Assembly (NCBI GenBank): GCA_025774935.1
Contig: JALGZK010000007.1
Location: 1-64,000 of the forward strand
Length of the DNA: 64,000 bases
Source of the DNA: a bacterium
GTDB taxonomy: Bacteria; Joyebacterota; Joyebacteria; Joyebacterales; Joyebacteraceae
Direction: 5' to 3'
Part shown: positions 2,729 through 55,863 of the stretch, piece by piece
Layout: each line of letters starts with the position of its first letter
How positions within the stretch are numbered: position 1 is the first letter of the stretch
Notes under the pieces: generated by a model
What the model saw: the letters and a program-made list of their open reading frames with translations, nothing else
Databases searched by the model: none
Told to the model about the DNA's origin: nothing
Translations under genes and position numbers: made by a program

Positions 2729-4150
2729 TCAGCGCAGGACCGTGATCTTCGTCGTTTCCTCATGTTGGTCGGTCGCGAGGCGGCAGAGGTAGATGCCCGA
2801 AGCCACGTCCGCCCCCGAAGAGTCCTTCCCGTCCCAGTGCACCTCGTGCTTCCCGGCGTCCACGGTTCCCGCAACGAGGCGCCTTACGAGCCTGCCGCTC
2901 ACGTCGTAGACCTCGAGGTCGACCCGCGCTCTCTCGGGCAGGTTCAGCGAAAGCGTCGTCGCTCCGCGCATCGGGTTCGGATACGCGCGCATGCGGGAGG
3001 CCACCTCCGCCTCGCCCGGCGCGTCCGGATCGTCCGCGACGCCGGTCGCCGTCGTGCGGATGATGAACCAGCGATTGGCCCACGGGGGCATAGTGTCCAT
3101 GCCGATCCCGACCATCGTCGTGGCGTCGGCCGAGACGCCCGTGAGCGTCTGGATCCTGAACGACGTGGGGACGGTGACGCCGTTGTCGTTGAGGTAGTCC
3201 TCGATGTCGTACATCCCCGTCTCTTCCGTCCAGACGAACCCGGTCGACTGGGTCCAGTCGTAGGCGTTGTACCCGACGATCGTGCTCCCGTCCGGGGTCA
3301 TGTCGTTGCAGATCACCGAGCCGTAGTGCGGGAACGTGTTCGGGAGCGTCCCGAGCCGGTCCTCGTCCCAGGACGACCCGTTCCAGCGCCACAGCGTGGC
3401 CACAGAGATGGAGAGCGAATCGTCGTAGGCCTGCCCGCCGACGATCGTGCCGTCGTAGTTGACCGTGTTGAGTATGGCCATTGCGTCGGTCTCCTGGAGG
3501 ATCGTCATCTCCTCGTCGACCCACACCGTCGGCTGCCACCCGCCGACGTCGGACTCGGCCCAGCCCACGATGACGGAGCCGTCGTAGTTCGCAGCGTTCG
3601 CGCGGCTGTTCCCGCCGGCACTGCCGAGGTCCACCATCCCGCCGTCTACGGTCCACCTGCAGGCATGGGCGAGACCGTCTCCAACCGGTCCGCCGTGTCC
3701 CGGCCGCCAGTAGAGCCCGACGACGGTGGTGCCGTCGCCGGAGAGGCCCCACGCGGAACCGTACGCGTTGTCGATGAGTCCGCCGTCCGGGAGCGTCGGC
3801 GGCATCAGCTCGAGCCAGCCTTCGTCCAGCGTCCAGCGGCCTACCGTCGCGTATGTGCTGTCGCGTCCCAGGATCGTCGCGGAGGCGTGTACGCCGTCGT
3901 CCGAGACATCGGGCGTGCCGGCGCCGACTCCGAGAACCGGGACCGTCGCGAGACCGAGGAGGACCATGCCGTCCTCCTGCGTCCAGCGAAAGGTTTCGTA
4001 GGCGCCGTTGGTGTTTCCGACAACGACCGTGCCGTCGTCGGAGATGTCGGTAGCACCGCCCTCGGCGATGATCTCGAACGTGACTTCGGCCTGTGCTGTT
4101 GCGCAGACGGCGAGTACTCCCACGAGCAGAATGAACCGTACGATCTCCAT
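2729..4150 (-). CDS. Secreted HAF-repeat protein with FlgD-like C-terminal domain (paralogue 1)
   Basis: A signal peptide (1-21, ending AQA) is followed by a beta-propeller-like array of HAF-type repeats recognisable by D-G-[TS]-x-[VI]-V-G cores (SDDGTVVVGN, GDGTTVVGL, YDGSVIVGW, PDGSTIVGY). A FlgD-like/T9SS-like beta-sandwich occupies about residues 385-473 (YPNP, VYDVSGRLVRRLV, HWDGKDSSG, SGIYLCRL). Such C-terminal domains are common on secreted proteins of FCB-related lineages, where they act in sorting or anchoring. AAGGAG lies 9 bases before the ATG. The neighbour upstream (4220-5599) is a close paralogue in the same orientation, so this is a tandem duplication. The function is unknown; a surface or extracellular role is inferred. 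Confidence 0.82.
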   Translation of the reverse strand: MEIVRFILLVGVLAVCATAQAEVTFEIIAEGGATDISDDGTVVVGNTNGAYETFRWTQEDGMVLLGLATVPVLGVGAGTPDVSDDGVHASATILGRDSTYATVGRWTLDEGWLELMPPTLPDGGLIDNAYGSAWGLSGDGTTVVGLYWRPGHGGPVGDGLAHACRWTVDGGMVDLGSAGGNSRANAANYDGSVIVGWAESDVGGWQPTVWVDEEMTILQETDAMAILNTVNYDGTIVGGQAYDDSLSISVATLWRWNGSSWDEDRLGTLPNTFPHYGSVICNDMTPDGSTIVGYNAYDWTQSTGFVWTEETGMYDIEDYLNDNGVTVPTSFRIQTLTGVSADATTMVGIGMDTMPPWANRWFIIRTTATGVADDPDAPGEAEVASRMRAYPNPMRGATTLSLNLPERARVDLEVYDVSGRLVRRLVAGTVDAGKHEVHWDGKDSSGADVASGIYLCRLATDQHEETTKITVLR

Positions 4151-4219: not shown

Positions 4220-5599
4220 TTACCTCAGAACCGTGATCTTGCGCGTCTCTCTCGTGTCTTCGGTCGTGAGTCTGCAGAAGTAGATGCCGGACGTCACTTC
4301 GATACCCGACGCGTCCCTTCCGTCCCAGTACACCTCCTGTTGTCCGGCTTCGACGGACCCGGTCACCAGCTTCTTCACCAGCCTGCCGCTTATGTCGTAG
4401 ACGGCGAGATCGACGCGGCCGCTCCGGGGGATGGAGAGCGACAGCGTCGTCTCTCCGCGTGTCGGGTTCGGGTACGCGTGGACGCGGGAGGTCACCTGAG
4501 CGGGTGATTCCTCGATGCCCGTCGATTGCGTGTTAATGAAGAACCACCTGGCGGTGTACGGCGGGTAGATGTCGTAGCAGATTCCGACCATGGTGGAGCC
4601 GTCCGGGGTGATCGCCTGAAGCGAGACGATGTTGATGTCGGACGGCACGATGACTCCGTTATCCGTGAGGTAGTCCTCCACGTCCATGACGCCGGTCTCT
4701 TCCGTCCAGATGAACCCGGTCGCGTCCCCGGGATTGGAGAACCGGTTGTAGCCGACGATGACGCTACCGTCTTCCGTCGCGTCGTAGCAGAGGGCCATGC
4801 CGAAGTTCGGGTGCAGTCCGGGGAGCGCTCCCAGCAGATCCTCGTCCCACGAGGTCCCGTTCCAGATCCACCGGGCCGCCACCCTGAGGTTGGTAGAGTC
4901 GTCGAGCGCCTGCCCCAGGACCACGGACCCGTCCCGAAGCACCGCGGTTGCCTCGCAGAACGCTTCGTCCTCCGCGAGGATCGTCTTGACGCCATCGACC
5001 CAGACGGTCGGCTGCCAGTGCCCGAAATCGGATTCGTCCCAGCCGGCGATCACGGTTCCATCTTCGTTGGCGTCGTTGGCCCGGCTGTTGCCGCCGCTGC
5101 TTCCGAGGCCGACCGCGCCGGTCTCTCTCGTCCACGTGCTCCCGTGCGCGCTTCCGCCCGGCTGTCCCGCACGCCAATAGAGCCCGACCACGGTGCTTCC
5201 GTCATCCGAGAGGCCCCACGCCGAGCCGTAGGAGTCGCTCATTGGGTTCCCGTCCGGCGGCGGAGGCGGCATCGTCTCTTCCCAACCCGCACCGAGCGTC
5301 CACCTACCCTGCGTCCAGTAGGTTCCATCGGCGCCGGGAATGCTCGCCGACACCTGCGTGCCGTCCGCCGAGACGTCGGGCGAACCGGATCCGCCTCCCT
5401 CGGCGAGGATCTCTATGCCGCCCTCGGCGGTCCAGCGAAATGGCTCGTACAGACCTTCGGTATTCCCGACCACGACCGACGCGTCGTCGGAGATGTCGGT
5501 CGCGTACCCTACGTCGATGATCTCGAACGTGACCTCGGCCCGAACGATTCCTGAGAGCACGGCCGACACCACCAGCAGTGCGAGACACGTGACCTTCAT
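4220..5599 (-). CDS. Secreted HAF-repeat protein with FlgD-like C-terminal domain (paralogue 2)
   Basis: It has the same architecture as the next gene downstream: signal peptide, repeated D-G-S-x-V-V-G units (DDGSTVVGLYW, EDGTVIAGW, EDGSVIVGYN, PDGSTMVGI) and a FlgD-like domain ending CRLTTEDTRETRKITVLR. The alignment runs end to end with shared landmarks such as GSAWGLS-DG-T-VVGLYWR and GNSRAN-AN. The start is placed at the ATG of MKVTC because AAGGAG is 9 bases upstream; an ATG three codons earlier would sit too close to it. Sequence divergence between the copies is highest in the loops, which suggests an old duplication. The ligand or role is not known. Confidence 0.82.
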   Translation of the reverse strand: MKVTCLALLVVSAVLSGIVRAEVTFEIIDVGYATDISDDASVVVGNTEGLYEPFRWTAEGGIEILAEGGGSGSPDVSADGTQVSASIPGADGTYWTQGRWTLGAGWEETMPPPPPDGNPMSDSYGSAWGLSDDGSTVVGLYWRAGQPGGSAHGSTWTRETGAVGLGSSGGNSRANDANEDGTVIAGWDESDFGHWQPTVWVDGVKTILAEDEAFCEATAVLRDGSVVLGQALDDSTNLRVAARWIWNGTSWDEDLLGALPGLHPNFGMALCYDATEDGSVIVGYNRFSNPGDATGFIWTEETGVMDVEDYLTDNGVIVPSDINIVSLQAITPDGSTMVGICYDIYPPYTARWFFINTQSTGIEESPAQVTSRVHAYPNPTRGETTLSLSIPRSGRVDLAVYDISGRLVKKLVTGSVEAGQQEVYWDGRDASGIEVTSGIYFCRLTTEDTRETRKITVLR

Positions 5600-5693
5600 A
5601 CTCTCCATCTCCTTGCGTGTGGGCTGAGCTCAGTCGAGCGCGGTCTCATGCCCGCATCTTGTGCGCGAGACTCCCGTCGTCCCCGACTCGGTC

Positions 5694-5757: not shown

Positions 5758-6417
5758 CTAGCGATACAGAGCCTTGATCTCGCCCCACGTCGCGCTCTCC
5801 ACCGGCGTCGAGCCGGGGAGACCTTCGATCAGGATCGACGAGTCGAGTCCCGGGTTGAAGTTGAACCACATCGAGGGCGGCGGGAACGCGTACACGTCGT
5901 AGGATGCGCTCGCATCCAGAAGGTACGTCATGGACGACAGATGAATCTCCGGGCCGAACGGGCCGGCCGGGGCGATCGGGGTGATGCCGATCCAGTAGTC
6001 GCCCTCTCCGAGCGGGATGTCCAGACCGGATGCGGTCACGACGAAGTGGTCCATGTCGAGCACCGCGGACATCGCCACGATCGGGCTCGCGGTCGGATCG
6101 TCGGTGCCGTCGATCGGCAGCGGGCCTGTCTTGTCGTAGACGTGCAGGTAGCCCTGCGTGATGCCGTCGCCCCAGACCATGTCGAGGGCGGAGTAGTACG
6201 TGCTGATGCTCTGAACGGTCCAGCCCGAGGCGTCGACGGTCACGTCGCTCACGGTGTGGACCTGCATCCCGAAGGGCGGGGCGCCGGCGTCGGCGTTGAA
6301 GAAGCCCATGCCCCAGACATCGTAGTCCGACTGGTCCCAGAGGATGTCGGCGGCGGCGGCCTGCGCCATCGCGAGTGCGGCGACCATCACGACAAGCATC
6401 GTAAGTCTTACGTTCAT
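5758..6417 (-). CDS. Secreted protein of unknown function ending in WGEIKALYR
   Basis: A 219-residue protein with a signal peptide (MNVRLTMLVVMVAALAMAQA) and an all-beta-looking body rich in Trp, Tyr, Gly and Asp. It recalls the PEP-CTERM-type exported proteins (SxxDVWGMGFFN..., DYWIGITP), but it has no PEP-CTERM tail. It ends TPVESATWGEIKALYR. The same terminal signature occurs on two unrelated secreted proteins in this window (52010-52933 and 54624-55436). The start is the ATG with GAGGAG 7 bases upstream; a GTG five codons earlier lies inside that ribosome site. I do not recognise the family. Cell-surface or extracellular location is inferred. Confidence 0.72.
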   Translation of the reverse strand: MNVRLTMLVVMVAALAMAQAAAADILWDQSDYDVWGMGFFNADAGAPPFGMQVHTVSDVTVDASGWTVQSISTYYSALDMVWGDGITQGYLHVYDKTGPLPIDGTDDPTASPIVAMSAVLDMDHFVVTASGLDIPLGEGDYWIGITPIAPAGPFGPEIHLSSMTYLLDASASYDVYAFPPPSMWFNFNPGLDSSILIEGLPGSTPVESATWGEIKALYR

Positions 6418-6642
6418 CTTCTCACTCCTCACGTGTTAGTATGCTCCTGCTTCACTTCTGAGCCGTTACTGCGAGCGCTACTGGTGGAATCCGTGTCTGC
6501 CTCCTTTCAAGCATCTCCGACGTCAGCACTGTCTGGCCCACTCGTCGGATCGTCGCTCGCTGCCAGGCCTCTCTCTCGTGGTAGTCGAAGTGGGGGGCAC
6601 TCAATGTCCACGATGAGAAGTGTAGCATATCTGCCGGAGTTC

Positions 6643-35975: not shown

Positions 35976-36896
35976 ATGTCGGCGGTGACACGTCTCTCGA
36001 CTCTCCTCATCGCGGGCGCTGTCGTCGCCGGCCTGCTCGTCGCTCACGCGCCGCACGCTGCCGCCGATGACCCCTTGACCGTCTACACGGTCAGCTACCC
36101 GCTCGCATACTTCGCGGAACGAATCGGCGGCGACCACGTGAAGGTCACCTTCCCCGCGCCGCCCGACGTCGATCCGGCCTACTGGATGCCCGACGCGAAC
36201 ACGATCGCCGGCTACCAGGGCGCGGACGTGATCCTGCTGAACGGGGCAGGATACGCCGACTGGGTCGAGAAGACCGCGCTCTCGCAGTTCCGCCTGGTCG
36301 ACACGGCCGCCGGGTTCGCCGACGTTCTCATCGAGCTGGACGACATCGTGACGCACAGCCACGGTCCGACCGGCGAGCACTCGCACGAGGGGACGCTCGC
36401 ATTCACGACGTGGCTTGACTTCCGGCTGGCGGTGCTCCAGGCCGGGGCGGTCGAGGAAGCGCTGTCGAAGCGGCGCCCCGCCCTGGCGAAGGAGCTCGAC
36501 GCGAACTTCGAGGAGCTGAAGGCCGACCTCCAAGCGATCGACGACGCGATCTCGGAAATCACCGCGTCGATCGAGGAACTCCCTCTCGTGATGTCCCACC
36601 CCGTCTATCAGTACTTCACGAGGCGCTACGGCCTCAACGCCGTGAGCGTGCACTGGGAGCCCGACGTGGTCCCCGACGCCCCGCAGTGGCTCGAGTTCGA
36701 GGAGCTCCTCCAGAGTCATCCGGCGGAGTGGATGATCTGGGAAGGCGAGCCGCTCGAGGCCTCGGTAGCGAAGCTCGCGGCGGCGGGCGTGGGCAGCACG
36801 GTCTTCGATCCGTGTGGCAACAGGCCGGAGGAAGGTGACTTCCTCGCTGTGATGAACGAGAACGTCGAGAACCTGCGCGCGGCCTACGAGGACTAG
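35976..36896 (+). CDS. ZnuA/TroA-like metal-binding periplasmic protein
   Basis: A 306-residue exported protein of the metal-receptor (cluster A-I) type: VYTVSYPLAYFAERIGGDHV at the start of the mature part, PDANTIAGYQGADVILLNGAGYADW, a His-rich loop near residue 125 (THSHGPTGEHSHEG), LVMSHPVYQYFTRRYGL, and DPCGNRPEEGDFLAVM. The His-rich loop and conserved order are those of zinc receptors. ATG 35976 was chosen for its GGGGGAG 5 bases upstream; ATG 35958 is in frame. It lies 50 bases after an FtsX-like permease instead of a ZnuB-like one, which is unusual. Zinc binding is inferred. Confidence 0.85.
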   Translation: MSAVTRLSTLLIAGAVVAGLLVAHAPHAAADDPLTVYTVSYPLAYFAERIGGDHVKVTFPAPPDVDPAYWMPDANTIAGYQGADVILLNGAGYADWVEKTALSQFRLVDTAAGFADVLIELDDIVTHSHGPTGEHSHEGTLAFTTWLDFRLAVLQAGAVEEALSKRRPALAKELDANFEELKADLQAIDDAISEITASIEELPLVMSHPVYQYFTRRYGLNAVSVHWEPDVVPDAPQWLEFEELLQSHPAEWMIWEGEPLEASVAKLAAAGVGSTVFDPCGNRPEEGDFLAVMNENVENLRAAYED

Positions 36897-37004
36897 AAGG
36901 GAGACGCGGCTCCTCGCCGGCGTGGACACGTTGGAACTTCGGGCTCAGGATCGGCGAGAGGACTGAGGCAGCGGCAGCCCGTCAGTCAGGCAAGGGGGTC
37001 TCAG

Positions 37005-37553
37005 ATGCTCGATCTCATCTCAAGGAACTGGTGGGCCTACCTCATCCGAGGGATCCTGGCGATCCTGTTTGGTCTGGTCATCTGGACGAGGCCTCTGGCG
37101 GGCACGGGGTTCCTCGTGTGGCTCTTCGGGATCTTCGTGTTCGTGGAGGGCATCTTCGCGGTGGTCGCCGCGTTTGGCGGGCGAAAGGGGAACCCGAACT
37201 GGTGGGCAGTGTTCATCCAGGGGCTCGTCGGAATCCTTATCGGGATCGTCATGTTCACGAACCCGCTCATGACGGCCGTCTTCTTCGTTCGCCTCCTCGG
37301 GCTGTGGGCGATCATCGTTGGCGTCTTCCGAATCGTCGGGGCTCTCCGCCTCCGGACGGAGGTCGCCGGCGAGTGGATGCACGTCGTCGGCGGGATCATC
37401 ACCGTGCTTCTCGGGATCATCGTGATCGCCTGGCCAGCGGGTGGCGTGCTCGCGTTCGCGTGGCTGATCGGTCTCTTCGCGGTCCTGATCGGCGCCTTCC
37501 TCATCGGCGTCGCCATGAAGGCGAGAGCGGCAGGGAAGGCGGTGGCCGCCTAG
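37005..37553 (+). CDS. HdeD-family (DUF308) membrane protein
   Basis: A 182-residue inner-membrane protein with six evenly spaced hydrophobic helices in three pairs (RGILAILFGLVIW..., GLVGILIGIVMFTNP..., GGIITVLLGIIVIAWP), the internal triplicated repeat of HdeD/DUF308. HdeD is linked to acid stress in E. coli; the role in this organism is unknown. AAGGGGG is 6 bases before the ATG. It stands alone between the metal ABC operon and a BamA-like gene; a hairpin at 37654-37682 could end its transcript. Confidence 0.88.
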   Translation: MLDLISRNWWAYLIRGILAILFGLVIWTRPLAGTGFLVWLFGIFVFVEGIFAVVAAFGGRKGNPNWWAVFIQGLVGILIGIVMFTNPLMTAVFFVRLLGLWAIIVGVFRIVGALRLRTEVAGEWMHVVGGIITVLLGIIVIAWPAGGVLAFAWLIGLFAVLIGAFLIGVAMKARAAGKAVAA

Positions 37554-49718: not shown

Positions 49719-51833
49719 GTGAGAACGATGCTCATCCTCGCGGTGGCAGTCGTTCTGGCGATCGCCCTGCCTGTCACGGCGAGCGAGATCCACGACGCGG
49801 CCGCCGAAGGAGATGATGCGCGAGTGAAGGAACTCCTGAAGGAGAATCCGGAGCTCGCGCTCGAGAAGGACGTAAGGAACGAGACGGTCCTCCACATCGC
49901 GGCCCGTGAGGGCCATCTCGAAGTGGTCAAGGCCGCGCTCAAGGCGGGAGCCCCCATCGACATCGGCGACAACGAGGGGAGCACGCCGCTCGATGTCGCG
50001 GCGATCTTCGGACACATGGAGCTCGCCGAGTACCTCGTCAAGAAGGGCGCCGCCATCGACCACGCCGACGTCAACGGCCTCACGCCCCTGCATTTCGCCG
50101 CCTACAACGAGCAGCCCGAGATCACCGCGTTCCTGATCGAACGCGGCGCCGACGTCAGCGCCTTGACGGCTGGCAGCAGCACCCCGCTCCACGGCGCCGC
50201 CTACAACGGCGACGTCGCTACCATGACGGTCCTCCTCGAGAACGGCGCCGATCCGAACGCAAGAAACAGCGCCGGCTACACGCCGATCCTGAGCGGAGCC
50301 GCTGTGAACGGCGGACTCGACGCGATCGAGCTTCTCGTCGCTCACGGAGCGGACATCTACGACCGCGTACACGAGGGCTCGAGCGCGCTCATGTTCGCGG
50401 CCGCCGCCGGAAAGCCCGATCTCGTCCGCTACTTCCTCGAGGCGGGCGTGCCTCCGGACGCGCGGAACAACCACGAGTGGATGGCGATCCATACCGCCGC
50501 CGAGGGCGGCAACGTCGAGATCATCGACATCCTCGTCGAGAACGGGGCCGACGTGAACGCAGGCTGCGGGTTCGGAAGGACTGCCGTCACCTGGGCAGTG
50601 CTCCGCAGTCACCAGGAAGCGACGGCGCGGCTTCTCGAGCTCGGCGCCGATCCCGACCCTGTGGACGACTGGGGCGGCACGCCGCTCGCGCGCGCGTTCC
50701 TGAACGGTGACATCGAGATCGCGCGACTCCTGATCAGCGCCGGCGCCGATGTCAACAGGCCGGCGGGTGACTGGGAGCGCTCGATCCTGCACACCGCCGC
50801 CGTCAGCGGCCGGACCGACCTCATCGCGCTGGCCGTCGAGTTCTCCGCCGACGTGAACGCTGTCGATGCCTACGGAATGACTCCGATCGAGTACGCGGCA
50901 CGCTACGGGCACAAGGACGCGGCGGACGCGCTCATCGCGGCGGGCGCTCGGGCCGAAGGCCTTGAGGAGAACTACGGTCGCCCCGAGCTCCTCGACCAGC
51001 GTGTCGCGGACGGCGAGGCGGTGATGTGGTATCTTGGTCACTGCGGGTTCGCCGTCAAGACGAGAGACCACTTCATGGTCTTCGACTACTGGAAGGACGA
51101 CGACGCACCAGCGTCCGCCTCGCTCTCGAACGGCCACATCGTGGCGTCTGAACTCGACGGCCAGAACGTTGTCGTCTTCGTCACCCACGGCCACGGCGAC
51201 CACTTCGATCCTCGGATCTTCGATTGGGCCGACTCCGTCGGGAAGATCGAGTACGTCTACGGGTTCCGTCCCGAGCTCACGGAGCCGTACCGCACGGACG
51301 GATACGAGGGTCCGGAGTATCAGTTCATTGGTCCCCGTGAGCAGGCCACGTTCGGCGACGTCGAGGTAAGGACGATCGAGGCGAACGACGGCGGCGTCGG
51401 GTTCCTGGTCTCGGTCGACGGCATCGTCCTCTATCACGCCGGCGACCACGCCGGGTGGGCCGAGGGCGAGCGCGACGGGTATTTCGCCGAGATCGACTAC
51501 CTCGACCCGTTCGTGGACGAGCTCGACCTGGCGTTCGTGAACGTCACGGGCTGTCACGCGCACGACCCCGATCGGCTCCGCGAGGGCAACCTCTACACGA
51601 TGGAGAAGCTCAAGCCAGCGGTGGTCGTCCCGACGCACGCGTTCAATCGGGAGTACGCCTACGCCGACGCGGCGGTGGAGTTCGCGGAGGCCGGCTGCAC
51701 CACGCCGTGCTGTCTCCCGGTGAACTGCGGCGACAGCTTCGTCTACTCGAGCGGCAGGGTCGCGATCCTCGCCCCCGCCATCCCGGCAGGAAGCGCGATG
51801 GCGAACGCGACGGTTCCTACCTGCGCGCCCTGA
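49719..51833 (+). CDS. Exported ankyrin-repeat/metallo-beta-lactamase-fold fusion
   Basis: A 704-residue protein: signal peptide (ending PVTAS), about eleven ankyrin repeats (residues ~25-415; G-x-TPLH-AA and L-GAD-N units such as NGLTPLHFAAYNEQPEITAFLIERGADV), then a metallo-beta-lactamase domain (about 425-690) with VFVTHGHGDHFDP (H-x-H-x-D-H), YHAGDHAGW and PTHAFNREYAYADAA, plus a Cys-rich patch (CTTPCCLPVNCG). The second part resembles UlaG-like hydrolases, which act on sugar lactones or phosphodiesters. I do not recall this fusion as a named family. Start is GTG 49719 with GGGAGGAG close upstream. Periplasmic by inference. Confidence 0.82.
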   Translation: MRTMLILAVAVVLAIALPVTASEIHDAAAEGDDARVKELLKENPELALEKDVRNETVLHIAAREGHLEVVKAALKAGAPIDIGDNEGSTPLDVAAIFGHMELAEYLVKKGAAIDHADVNGLTPLHFAAYNEQPEITAFLIERGADVSALTAGSSTPLHGAAYNGDVATMTVLLENGADPNARNSAGYTPILSGAAVNGGLDAIELLVAHGADIYDRVHEGSSALMFAAAAGKPDLVRYFLEAGVPPDARNNHEWMAIHTAAEGGNVEIIDILVENGADVNAGCGFGRTAVTWAVLRSHQEATARLLELGADPDPVDDWGGTPLARAFLNGDIEIARLLISAGADVNRPAGDWERSILHTAAVSGRTDLIALAVEFSADVNAVDAYGMTPIEYAARYGHKDAADALIAAGARAEGLEENYGRPELLDQRVADGEAVMWYLGHCGFAVKTRDHFMVFDYWKDDDAPASASLSNGHIVASELDGQNVVVFVTHGHGDHFDPRIFDWADSVGKIEYVYGFRPELTEPYRTDGYEGPEYQFIGPREQATFGDVEVRTIEANDGGVGFLVSVDGIVLYHAGDHAGWAEGERDGYFAEIDYLDPFVDELDLAFVNVTGCHAHDPDRLREGNLYTMEKLKPAVVVPTHAFNREYAYADAAVEFAEAGCTTPCCLPVNCGDSFVYSSGRVAILAPAIPAGSAMANATVPTCAP

Positions 51834-52009: not shown

Positions 52010-52933
52010 ATGAAGAGAGCGATCGTGCTCTTGTGCATTGCCCTCCTGGTGTCGTCGCCGGTGATGGCGATCGCCAGGCAGAGCCTCAGGGAGGCGGTTC
52101 CGGACCTCCCGGACGACCAGGAACCGCTCGTCGTCGCGGATGTGCTCATCGCGATCGACATCGACGCGAACCCAGGATTCGCCGATCTCACCTCGCGCTA
52201 CGCGGACGCGTTCACTGCCGCGGGCGCGGCGTCCGTCGCGACCTGCGCCGTCGAGGCGACCGGCGGAACGATCAACTTCCCGCCGGACGTGACGTACGCG
52301 AACTATCCGGTGGTCGTCGTTCTCACGAGCGAGAACTGGTGGGAGATCCCGAGCAACATCGACCCTGCCGACGAGGTCGTCCTCATGAACTACCTCGACA
52401 GCGGCGGCAACCTCCTCCTGGTCGGTCAGGATTACATGTACGGCTCGCACGGGGACATGGACGGCGCCTCCAACCCCTGCTACGGGTTCCCGCTCAACTA
52501 CCTCGGTCTTGATCTCGTCTTCCAGGACTTCGACGGGCCGACGCCGCCGATGCGGAAGGGCGAGCCCCACGACGGAGAGCGGTCCGAGGTGGCAACGCTC
52601 TACGGCCGCGCCAATTGGATCCTCGTGGGCCTGGTGGTCATCATCGTCGCCAACACGGTCTTCATCAATAACCCGTTCTACACGGACCGCGGGGTGCCCG
52701 TGAGCAGGGGGGCCGGGATGGGTCTCGACTACGAGGGGGAATTCGCCTCGGCTGAGGGAGTTCTGACCTACTACGAGACGGACACGTTCCAGGCTGTCTG
52801 GTCTGGCGTCGAGATCTCCGCGGCCGGCGACGAGGACTTCAACGAGATCATCGCGCGACTCTACGAGTGGTTCGACGGCGAGACGCCCGTCCAGCGCCTC
52901 CACTGGGGAGCGATCAAGGCGCTGTATCGCTGA
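52010..52933 (+). CDS. Exported protein with internal membrane segment, ending WGAIKALYR
   Basis: A 307-residue protein: signal peptide (ending PVMAIA), an alpha/beta domain (about 40-200: VLIAIDIDANPGFADLTSRYADAFTAAG..., YPVVVVLTSENWW, LDSGGNLLLVGQDYMYG) that looks like a class-I-amidotransferase-like Rossmann fold, a hydrophobic segment WILVGLVVIIVANTVFI near 205-222, and a tail ending TPVQRLHWGAIKALYR. The tail matches two other secreted proteins in the window. GGGAGGAG is 4-5 bases before the ATG. It stands alone between two terminators. I do not recognise the family; the mid-protein hydrophobic stretch could be a buried strand rather than a span. Confidence 0.68.
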   Translation: MKRAIVLLCIALLVSSPVMAIARQSLREAVPDLPDDQEPLVVADVLIAIDIDANPGFADLTSRYADAFTAAGAASVATCAVEATGGTINFPPDVTYANYPVVVVLTSENWWEIPSNIDPADEVVLMNYLDSGGNLLLVGQDYMYGSHGDMDGASNPCYGFPLNYLGLDLVFQDFDGPTPPMRKGEPHDGERSEVATLYGRANWILVGLVVIIVANTVFINNPFYTDRGVPVSRGAGMGLDYEGEFASAEGVLTYYETDTFQAVWSGVEISAAGDEDFNEIIARLYEWFDGETPVQRLHWGAIKALYR

Positions 52934-54623: not shown

Positions 54624-55436
54624 CTATCGATAGATCCCCTTGATCGTACCCCAGCTCTCTGTTTCGACCGGCGTGACTCCAGCGATCTCCTCGTTCTCCG
54701 TGAGCCAGCAGGTCCAGGGGCCGCGCTCGCCCTCGCGGATGGCGAACTCCACCCAGGCGAGCCGCGGCGCGAAGAGGTCGTTCGCGGACACGATCTGAAG
54801 AGGGTCCATGCTCATTATGTAGTTCGCGTCGTCGTGGAAGTCGAGGAGGACATTCACGGGGGGGCCGGGCTCAAGGACCCAAGTGTTCGGTCCCGTGGGC
54901 GTCCCGAAGAGGTCGAACGACGGGAAGCTGAGCATGAAATCGACGACGTGGCCTGTGAGTGGCGGCGGCACGTTGTCCCACTGGATCATGATCTGCCCGG
55001 TGGCTCCCGCCGGGGACGCGCTGTCGATGACGGTGCCGTCCTCGTAGACGAATGTCATGGCGTCAACGGACGAGCTTTCCGCGAACACGAACAGGTTCAC
55101 GCCCCCCGGAAAGATCTCAGGAGGCTCAGCGGTCACGGCGTGCCATCCGGCGGCAGTCATGTGGGGCCCACTGCCCCCTCCGCCACCGGCACCCTTGATG
55201 CACTTGCAGTCTCTCCACGGGACGATCCCGCCGCCCGTTACCTCTTTGCAGGTCCCTATCCCACCGCCAGGGGGAGTGCACGACGTCCCTGGCTGACTGC
55301 ACGTGACGGTGGTTCCGGTGTTATGAACGTGAACGCAGCCGGTCAGGTGGCGGGAGCATCCCCCGTCGTGACCGAGTGCGCTGCCCGCGGCGAGCGCTAG
55401 GCTCATGACGGCCAAAGCGACAACGATCCATCTCAT
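54624..55436 (-). CDS. Cys-rich secreted protein ending WGTIKGIYR
   Basis: A 270-residue secreted protein: signal peptide (MRWIVVALAVMSLALAAGSALG), a cysteine-rich region of about 70 residues with eight cysteines (GGCSRHLTGC, TCSQPGTSC, GTCKEVTGGG, RDCKCIKG), a Gly-rich hinge (GGGGGSG), a beta-rich body, and the tail TPVETESWGTIKGIYR. Vicinal Cys pairs suggest disulfides. GGAGG is 7 bases before the ATG. The body resembles the secreted protein at 5758-6417 in composition only. Function unknown; surface exposure inferred from the tail shared with two other exported proteins. Confidence 0.7.
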   Translation of the reverse strand: MRWIVVALAVMSLALAAGSALGHDGGCSRHLTGCVHVHNTGTTVTCSQPGTSCTPPGGGIGTCKEVTGGGIVPWRDCKCIKGAGGGGGSGPHMTAAGWHAVTAEPPEIFPGGVNLFVFAESSSVDAMTFVYEDGTVIDSASPAGATGQIMIQWDNVPPPLTGHVVDFMLSFPSFDLFGTPTGPNTWVLEPGPPVNVLLDFHDDANYIMSMDPLQIVSANDLFAPRLAWVEFAIREGERGPWTCWLTENEEIAGVTPVETESWGTIKGIYR

Positions 55437-55863
55437 CTCGTCACCTCCCTTTCGTGAGGAAGACGGTCTCTCGAACACAGGGGCAGCGGGCCCCCGCGCG
55501 GTGCACTCCGCAACTCGCGCGGGTGTGCGCGTGTCACGGCGGCGGGTGTTCCCGTCACCCCCTACGGGCGCGGCGTCGTGCGCCGCGGCGCATCACCTGC
55601 GTCGTTCCCTTGGCGAGTGGGGTCTTGTCCGTCCGGCTCAGGGTCCCTTCGTGGCGGGACACGGAACTGCCGGATTCGGCGATCAGTACATTCTGATGCG
55701 GGCTCATCCAAACCGATGCTGCAGGTGAACGGCCACGCAAGCCAGACGTGAGTGAACCTGCTCAGTTATGCAGTTTCGGGTTCTGTCCGCGGCACCGGCA
55801 CCGTGCTACAATCGTCACCGGTCACCGGTGAGGACTGCCACGTCCTCCGGGAGGTTCGATTCG
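55437..55863. other. Gene-free intergenic region
   Basis: No convincing gene. It holds the upstream region of the minus-strand Cys-rich secreted gene and, at its right end, a possible -10 box (see 55804-55812) for the DUF4126 gene. A 10-bp palindrome TCACCGGTGA lies at about 55819-55828. Confidence 0.4.
55804..55812 (+). promoter_or_regulatory. Possible extended -10 promoter
   Basis: TGCTACAAT, an extended -10 element 50 bases before the DUF4126 gene; no clear -35 hexamer. Confidence 0.4.

Follow-up and report, generated by a model that had tools for sequence, protein, structure and literature searches.

Surface and secreted proteomes are recognized from sequence by their C-terminal tags, among them LPXTG, PEP-CTERM, and the T9SS domain. 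The T9SS type A domain (TIGR04183, Por_Secre_tail) is a β-sandwich of about 70 to 80 residues with motifs B, D, and E, and the shortest T9SS signals described, from Prevotella intermedia, are 40 to 55 residues long and have three strands along with the same three motifs (PMC11969387). For one Bacteroidota T9SS substrate, HBP35, targeting information resides in the last 22 residues, which form the last two strands of the folded C-terminal domain, and C-terminal extensions are tolerated (PMC11285876). The PEP-CTERM/exosortase, GlyGly-CTERM/rhombosortase, MYXO-CTERM, and LPXTG/sortase signals are built from a motif, a transmembrane helix, and a basic cluster.

The C-terminal tail described here, with the core WGxIKxLYR-COOH, has features of each of these signals. 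With the T9SS type A domain it shares its C-terminal position, its occurrence on many unrelated Sec-exported bodies per genome, the lack of a transmembrane segment, exchange on homologous bodies, and, in these genomes, a Leu-nonpolar-basic-COOH end. It is nevertheless only 9 to 16 conserved residues long, shorter also than the P. intermedia signals, contains Trp-Gly, obtains no score with TIGR04183, and does not form a folded β-sandwich of at least 40 residues with motifs B, D, and E. Like the PEP-CTERM, GlyGly-CTERM, MYXO-CTERM, and LPXTG signals, it is a short repeated C-terminal signal found on the same choice-of-anchor bodies, but the motif is at the very end of the protein and there is no helix. 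The HBP35 segment is of similar length and likewise tolerates extensions, but the tail has no preceding domain. None of the NCBIfam and Pfam models matches the tail, and searches with the motif strings and for sorting signals of these phyla returned nothing relevant in the open-access papers covered. The tail is described neither in those databases nor in the papers searched, and is probably an unrecognized signal.

The window analyzed is a 64 kb stretch of DNA from an uncultured seep bacterium of the phylum Ca. Effluviviacota (PMC11323493), whose genome comprises 3.24 Mb in 40 contigs. The third of the three tails in the window (copy 3) is TPVETESWGTIKGIYR, encoded at 54627..54674 on the (-) strand and followed directly by the stop codon at 54624-54626, as a sequence-only reading of the window had proposed. 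The gene (54624..55436, (-) strand) encodes a 270-residue product of exported type, with a signal peptide, a Cys-containing N-terminal module, a β-rich body, and the tail at the extreme C terminus. The signal peptide, MRWIVVALAVMSLALAAGSALG, is read from the ATG at 55436, which is likely the start codon, rather than the GTG at 55478. The same reading called the protein Cys-rich, a description that fits the N-terminal module: the longest frame (284 aa) has 8 Cys, mostly in its first third. No Pfam or NCBIfam family matched the copy-3 protein. Its AlphaFold model is weak and all-β (mean pLDDT 54, low confidence), with a pLDDT of 22 to 31 in the tail region and no structure in the final 30 residues, and an unstructured end in this low-confidence model is what would be expected of an appended linear signal. 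Two orthologs (68% identity in genome G001 and 54% in G003) and a paralog from the same genome (51%) all terminate in WGTIK[GSA][LI]YR, and no tail-less homolog of the protein was found. The proposal that close relatives should keep the tail was thus borne out in both orthologs.

A search of all six frames of the window for WG.IK..YR returned exactly three matches, each immediately 5' of a stop codon. The copy-2 tail, TPVQRLHWGAIKALYR, lies at 52883..52930 on the (+) strand (stop codon 52931-52933), in a gene at 52010..52933 that encodes a signal peptide and body. The end of this gene is separated from copy 3 by a gap of 1.7 kb, in agreement with the earlier observation that the two are on opposite strands about 2 kb apart. 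A homolog of the copy-2 protein in another Effluviviacota genome (52% identity over 245 aa) has the C terminus WGHIKALYSR. The copy-1 tail, TPVESATWGEIKALYR, is encoded at 5761..5808 on the (-) strand (stop codon 5758-5760), in a gene at 5758..6432 for a protein with a signal peptide and a body of no known family. Copy 1 adjoins two T9SS type A genes, all on the (-) strand: an HAF-repeat-like protein (4220..5608) with a terminal TIGR04183 domain (44.1 bits) that ends TRKITVLR, and an HAF-repeat protein (2729..4150) with a terminal T9SS type A domain (37.6 bits) that ends TTKITVLR. Elsewhere in the window, a (+) strand frame at 49719-51833, read by eye, has an unusual combination of signal peptide, ankyrin-like repeats, and a metallo-β-lactamase-like half (THGHGDHFD).

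From 184 non-redundant tails we derived the consensus [STV]-P-V-E-x-[SAT]-[ST]-W-G-x-I-K-[ASG]-L-Y-R-COOH. Trp, Gly, and Lys are present in all 184, Arg in 182, Tyr in 180, Ile in 177, and Leu in 167, so that the conserved core of Trp, Gly, Ile, Lys, Tyr, and Arg first seen in the window is nearly invariant, with the amendment that core position -2 is Leu (Ile in copy 3). The upstream TPV[EQ] run is present in all three window copies as claimed; elsewhere it is a preference, with P-V-E kept in about 60% of the tails. Conservation spans 16 residues only, including the nine-residue core. A minority of homologs have the core followed by 1 to 10 extra, mostly basic residues (YRR, YSR, YRQRARRRPPG, and YRNGNRRDRR are examples), or Trp-Ser in place of Trp-Gly, and such near-copies were seen at eleven loci. 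The free terminal Arg is therefore not always present.

Every one of the six Arg and four Gly codons is used in the tails, and there is no conservation 3' of the stop codon, which indicates that selection acts on the peptide: the tail is under purifying selection at the protein level. This pattern bears on whether the tails are neutral relics, propagated by duplication of genes or by a mobile 3' end. Some tagged genes are indeed tandem paralogs, and copied 3' ends would fit the over-representation of TAG as the stop codon, found in 48 of 71 tagged Effluviviacota genes versus 106 of 286 other large frames at the same loci, some of which may be spurious. Synonymous sites are nevertheless randomized while Trp, Gly, Lys, Ile, Tyr, and Arg are almost invariant across phyla, and orthologs that have diverged to 50% identity keep the tail. 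The codon pattern refutes a neutral relic unless selection acts on the RNA, which nothing supports, and we regard this explanation as highly improbable. An origin of the tails in mobile DNA was ruled out on the same grounds of free synonymous sites and nothing conserved downstream. In-frame TAG codons were also seen inside two tagged genes, where homologs have Trp (L111) or Tyr and other residues (L140); these are likely nonsense mutations or assembly errors.

At the nucleotide level, WGxIKx[LF]YR has 40 matches in the genome and 0 in a reversed control. Nearly all of the 30 strict matches examined are directly 5' of a stop codon, on otherwise unrelated proteins. A 19-column profile gave 99 tails in this genome and 55 to 98 in four further Effluviviacota genomes; outside the phylum, tagged genomes mostly have 11 to 55, and two have one each. 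Runs of two to four tandem tagged paralogs with differing bodies were seen on contigs C12, C15, and C18 of genome G000 and at two further loci (L064 and L082), and suggest local expansion of small secreted proteins.

Across all genomes, the tagged proteins form 73 unrelated body clusters, and 31 tagged proteins of this genome alone fall into 22. Body types include right-handed β-helix, NHL propeller, lamin-tail, InhA-like MAM, and choice-of-anchor V and J, which are surface or extracellular types. The tagged proteins are exported: a signal peptide was detected by a crude test in 143 of 154 scored genes, and several of the exceptions are broken or wrongly started genes. A hydrophobic stretch exceeding the transmembrane threshold (KD 1.6) within the final 60 residues was present in 1 of 143, and at E 0.01 TIGR04183 was found in 0 of 134 tagged proteins among the families listed. 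The C-terminal position and the terminal aromatic-basic pair are reminiscent of the BAM β-signal, by which β-barrels are inserted into the outer membrane. That signal is an alternating nonpolar last strand with a Phe or Trp end on a barrel body; in the tail, the nonpolar residues (W..I..LY) do not alternate and the last residue is Arg, and the bodies are soluble β-helices, propellers, and binding domains. A role as a BAM signal is accordingly very improbable.

In one tagged family with a binding-domain-like body, an in-frame TGA is conserved, within GFG-TGA-GP[FL] in five genomes of Effluviviacota and within GIG-TGA-SDA in another lineage. Members include G000:C21 at about 36850-37320 (L237) and L238, L239, L240, L037, and L134. 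The TGA is preceded by the signal peptide (seen in L037 and L134) and followed by the tail, all in one reading frame. A hairpin 15 to 20 bases 3' of the TGA retains five of six pairs by double changes in one or more sequences; it had no match in Rfam. Eleven of 20 genomes, this one among them, have a SelB that scores above the family cut-off, and no tRNA-Sec was seen in two SelB neighborhoods. By its sequence, the family looks like a candidate exported selenoprotein. A further tagged gene, at L104 (also L212) and seen in one genome, has DFDD-TGA-DWL in frame downstream of a possible signal peptide.

The tail is present in all 20 genomes examined of Ca. Effluviviacota and in 33 of 47 genomes of the Eisenbacteria phylum, with 0 control matches. 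A scan of genomes of 84,980 species detected at least 111 tail-pattern loci. With the exception of a 16-codon Bacillus frame and a few uncertain cases, the loci listed belong to MAGs with the labels Eisenbacteria, Krumholzibacteriota, Latescibacterota, Effluviviaceae, UBP1, Aegiribacteria, Coatesbacteria, Cloacimonadota, and Gemmatimonadota, and many of them are real tails. Loosening the motif over all loci added few variants, indicating that the core is strict. There were no Bacteroidota among the 111 loci listed, and ordinary T9SS machines thus apparently do not use the tail. Viral contigs gave ten matches, mostly a recurring 56-aa chance frame with a few cellular-looking genes; four contigs classed as viral (L203, L205, L198, and L202) carry tagged proteins and may be misclassified cellular DNA.

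Homologous bodies can end either in the tail or in a T9SS domain. Choice-of-anchor V proteins (NF041895) end in the tail (WGMIKALYR and similar) in genomes G000 to G003 and in the TIGR04183 type A domain in G032. At locus L092, one of two neighboring paralogs (35% identity over 178 aa) ends in the tail and the other in TIGR04183. A pair from within the phylum, L011 and L154 (44% over 178 aa), differs in the same way, with the tail on one and a T9SS-related C-terminal domain on the other; the L154 domain was matched only by FlgD-like relatives of the T9SS domain, not by TIGR04183. The pairs L049/L067, L088/L075 and L107, and L135/L092 show the same behavior, and TIGR04183 was matched in eight of ten exchanged partners. 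Homologous bodies with differing C-terminal signals are what NCBIfam uses to recognize choice-of-anchor bodies, and the tagged families have them; this exchange with T9SS domains is the strongest argument for a sorting signal. The tail takes the place of a known secretion-signal domain and is therefore probably an address label to or through the outer membrane.

Periplasmic tail-specific proteases read C termini, and the tail, a flexible C-terminal peptide of exported proteins in the low-confidence model, might instead be a degron or quality-control handle for such a protease. It would make little sense for about 100 unrelated proteins in each genome to carry a constitutive degron that exchanges with secretion domains, and known periplasmic degrons are much shorter and less strict than this motif; we consider this quite unlikely. 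With high confidence, we interpret the tail as a short sorting signal at the C terminus of exported proteins.

Every tagged genome tested encodes parts of the T9SS. T9SS type A domain matches number 36 to 150 in each of 18 tagged genomes, with 148 in this genome. SprA (SprA_N) was detected in 30 of 36 tagged genomes (17 of 20 in the phylum and 13 of 16 in others), including 13 of 13 near-complete genomes of the phylum, and the PorV family in 28 of 28 genomes tested, with 4 to 18 genes each. Most of the tagged genomes thus encode the translocon. Three from other phyla (G021, from Coatesbacteria and with 40 tails, G023, and G028) had no SprA_N match, although all three have PorV and T9SS-type domains. 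The T9SS domains in these genomes end in [ST]RKMVLL[RK]-COOH, sharing the Leu-nonpolar-basic end with LYR-COOH.

The docking mode and receptor proposed here are inferred, as is any anchoring or release of the tagged proteins. The protein would be synthesized with a Sec signal peptide and cross the inner membrane, exposing the unstructured C terminus in the periplasm. The W..I..LY spacing would place the large nonpolar residues on one face of a helical turn and Lys and Arg on the other, and docking would then probably involve the peptide as a short amphipathic element whose C-terminal end is basic. A receptor would direct the protein to or through the outer membrane, the same job as that of the T9SS C-terminal domain. 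The most economical receptor would be the T9SS itself, a PorV-family protein with the SprA translocon, and the tail would be a minimal T9SS signal.

Against the T9SS route, motifs B and D need room that the tail does not have, and co-occurrence would be expected anyway in nearly all T9SS-bearing relatives. Alternatively, a separate receptor in the periplasm or outer membrane, dedicated to WGxIKxLYR, would act alongside the T9SS and either secrete the tagged protein or retain it at the surface. Such a receptor would account for a tail that shares no domain with T9SS signals and is far shorter, for its apparent absence from T9SS-bearing Bacteroidota among the loci listed, and for the three tagged genomes with no detectable SprA_N. 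The tagged proteins are also small (median 235 aa), whereas T9SS type A frames here are mostly several hundred to 2400 aa. However, the neighborhoods of tagged genes at more than 100 loci revealed no dedicated receptor or protease, and the only recurrent neighbors there are tagged paralogs, T9SS-domain proteins, and scattered housekeeping genes, and T9SS parts are present in every tagged genome tested. PorV-family genes showed no obvious enrichment either, their four occurrences as neighbors being close to the genome-density expectation. Weighing a T9SS that is evolutionarily always near, the similar ends, and the 22-residue precedent against the missing motifs and the Bacteroidota without the tail, we give the T9SS route an about even chance and the separate receptor a distinctly smaller one. 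The favored reading is of a very short sorting signal that can replace the T9SS domain and whose reader is probably the T9SS or an associated receptor. That WGxIKxLYR-COOH marks a new sorting or secretion route with its own outer-membrane receptor, serving scores of proteins per genome in at least six candidate FCB (Fibrobacteres-Chlorobi-Bacteroidetes) phyla, is a tentative alternative.

The tail belongs with the C-terminal sorting signals and would be categorically new only if a machine of its own were proven; the strict motif makes phylogenetic profiling for a receptor straightforward. If it is a T9SS signal, a short linear peptide does a job thought to need a folded domain, which bears on recognition by PorV and SprA; otherwise, a secretion or anchoring system is still to be discovered. 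For several uncultured phyla whose proteins of this type mostly lack annotation, the tail would enlarge the predicted exported proteome by scores of proteins per genome.
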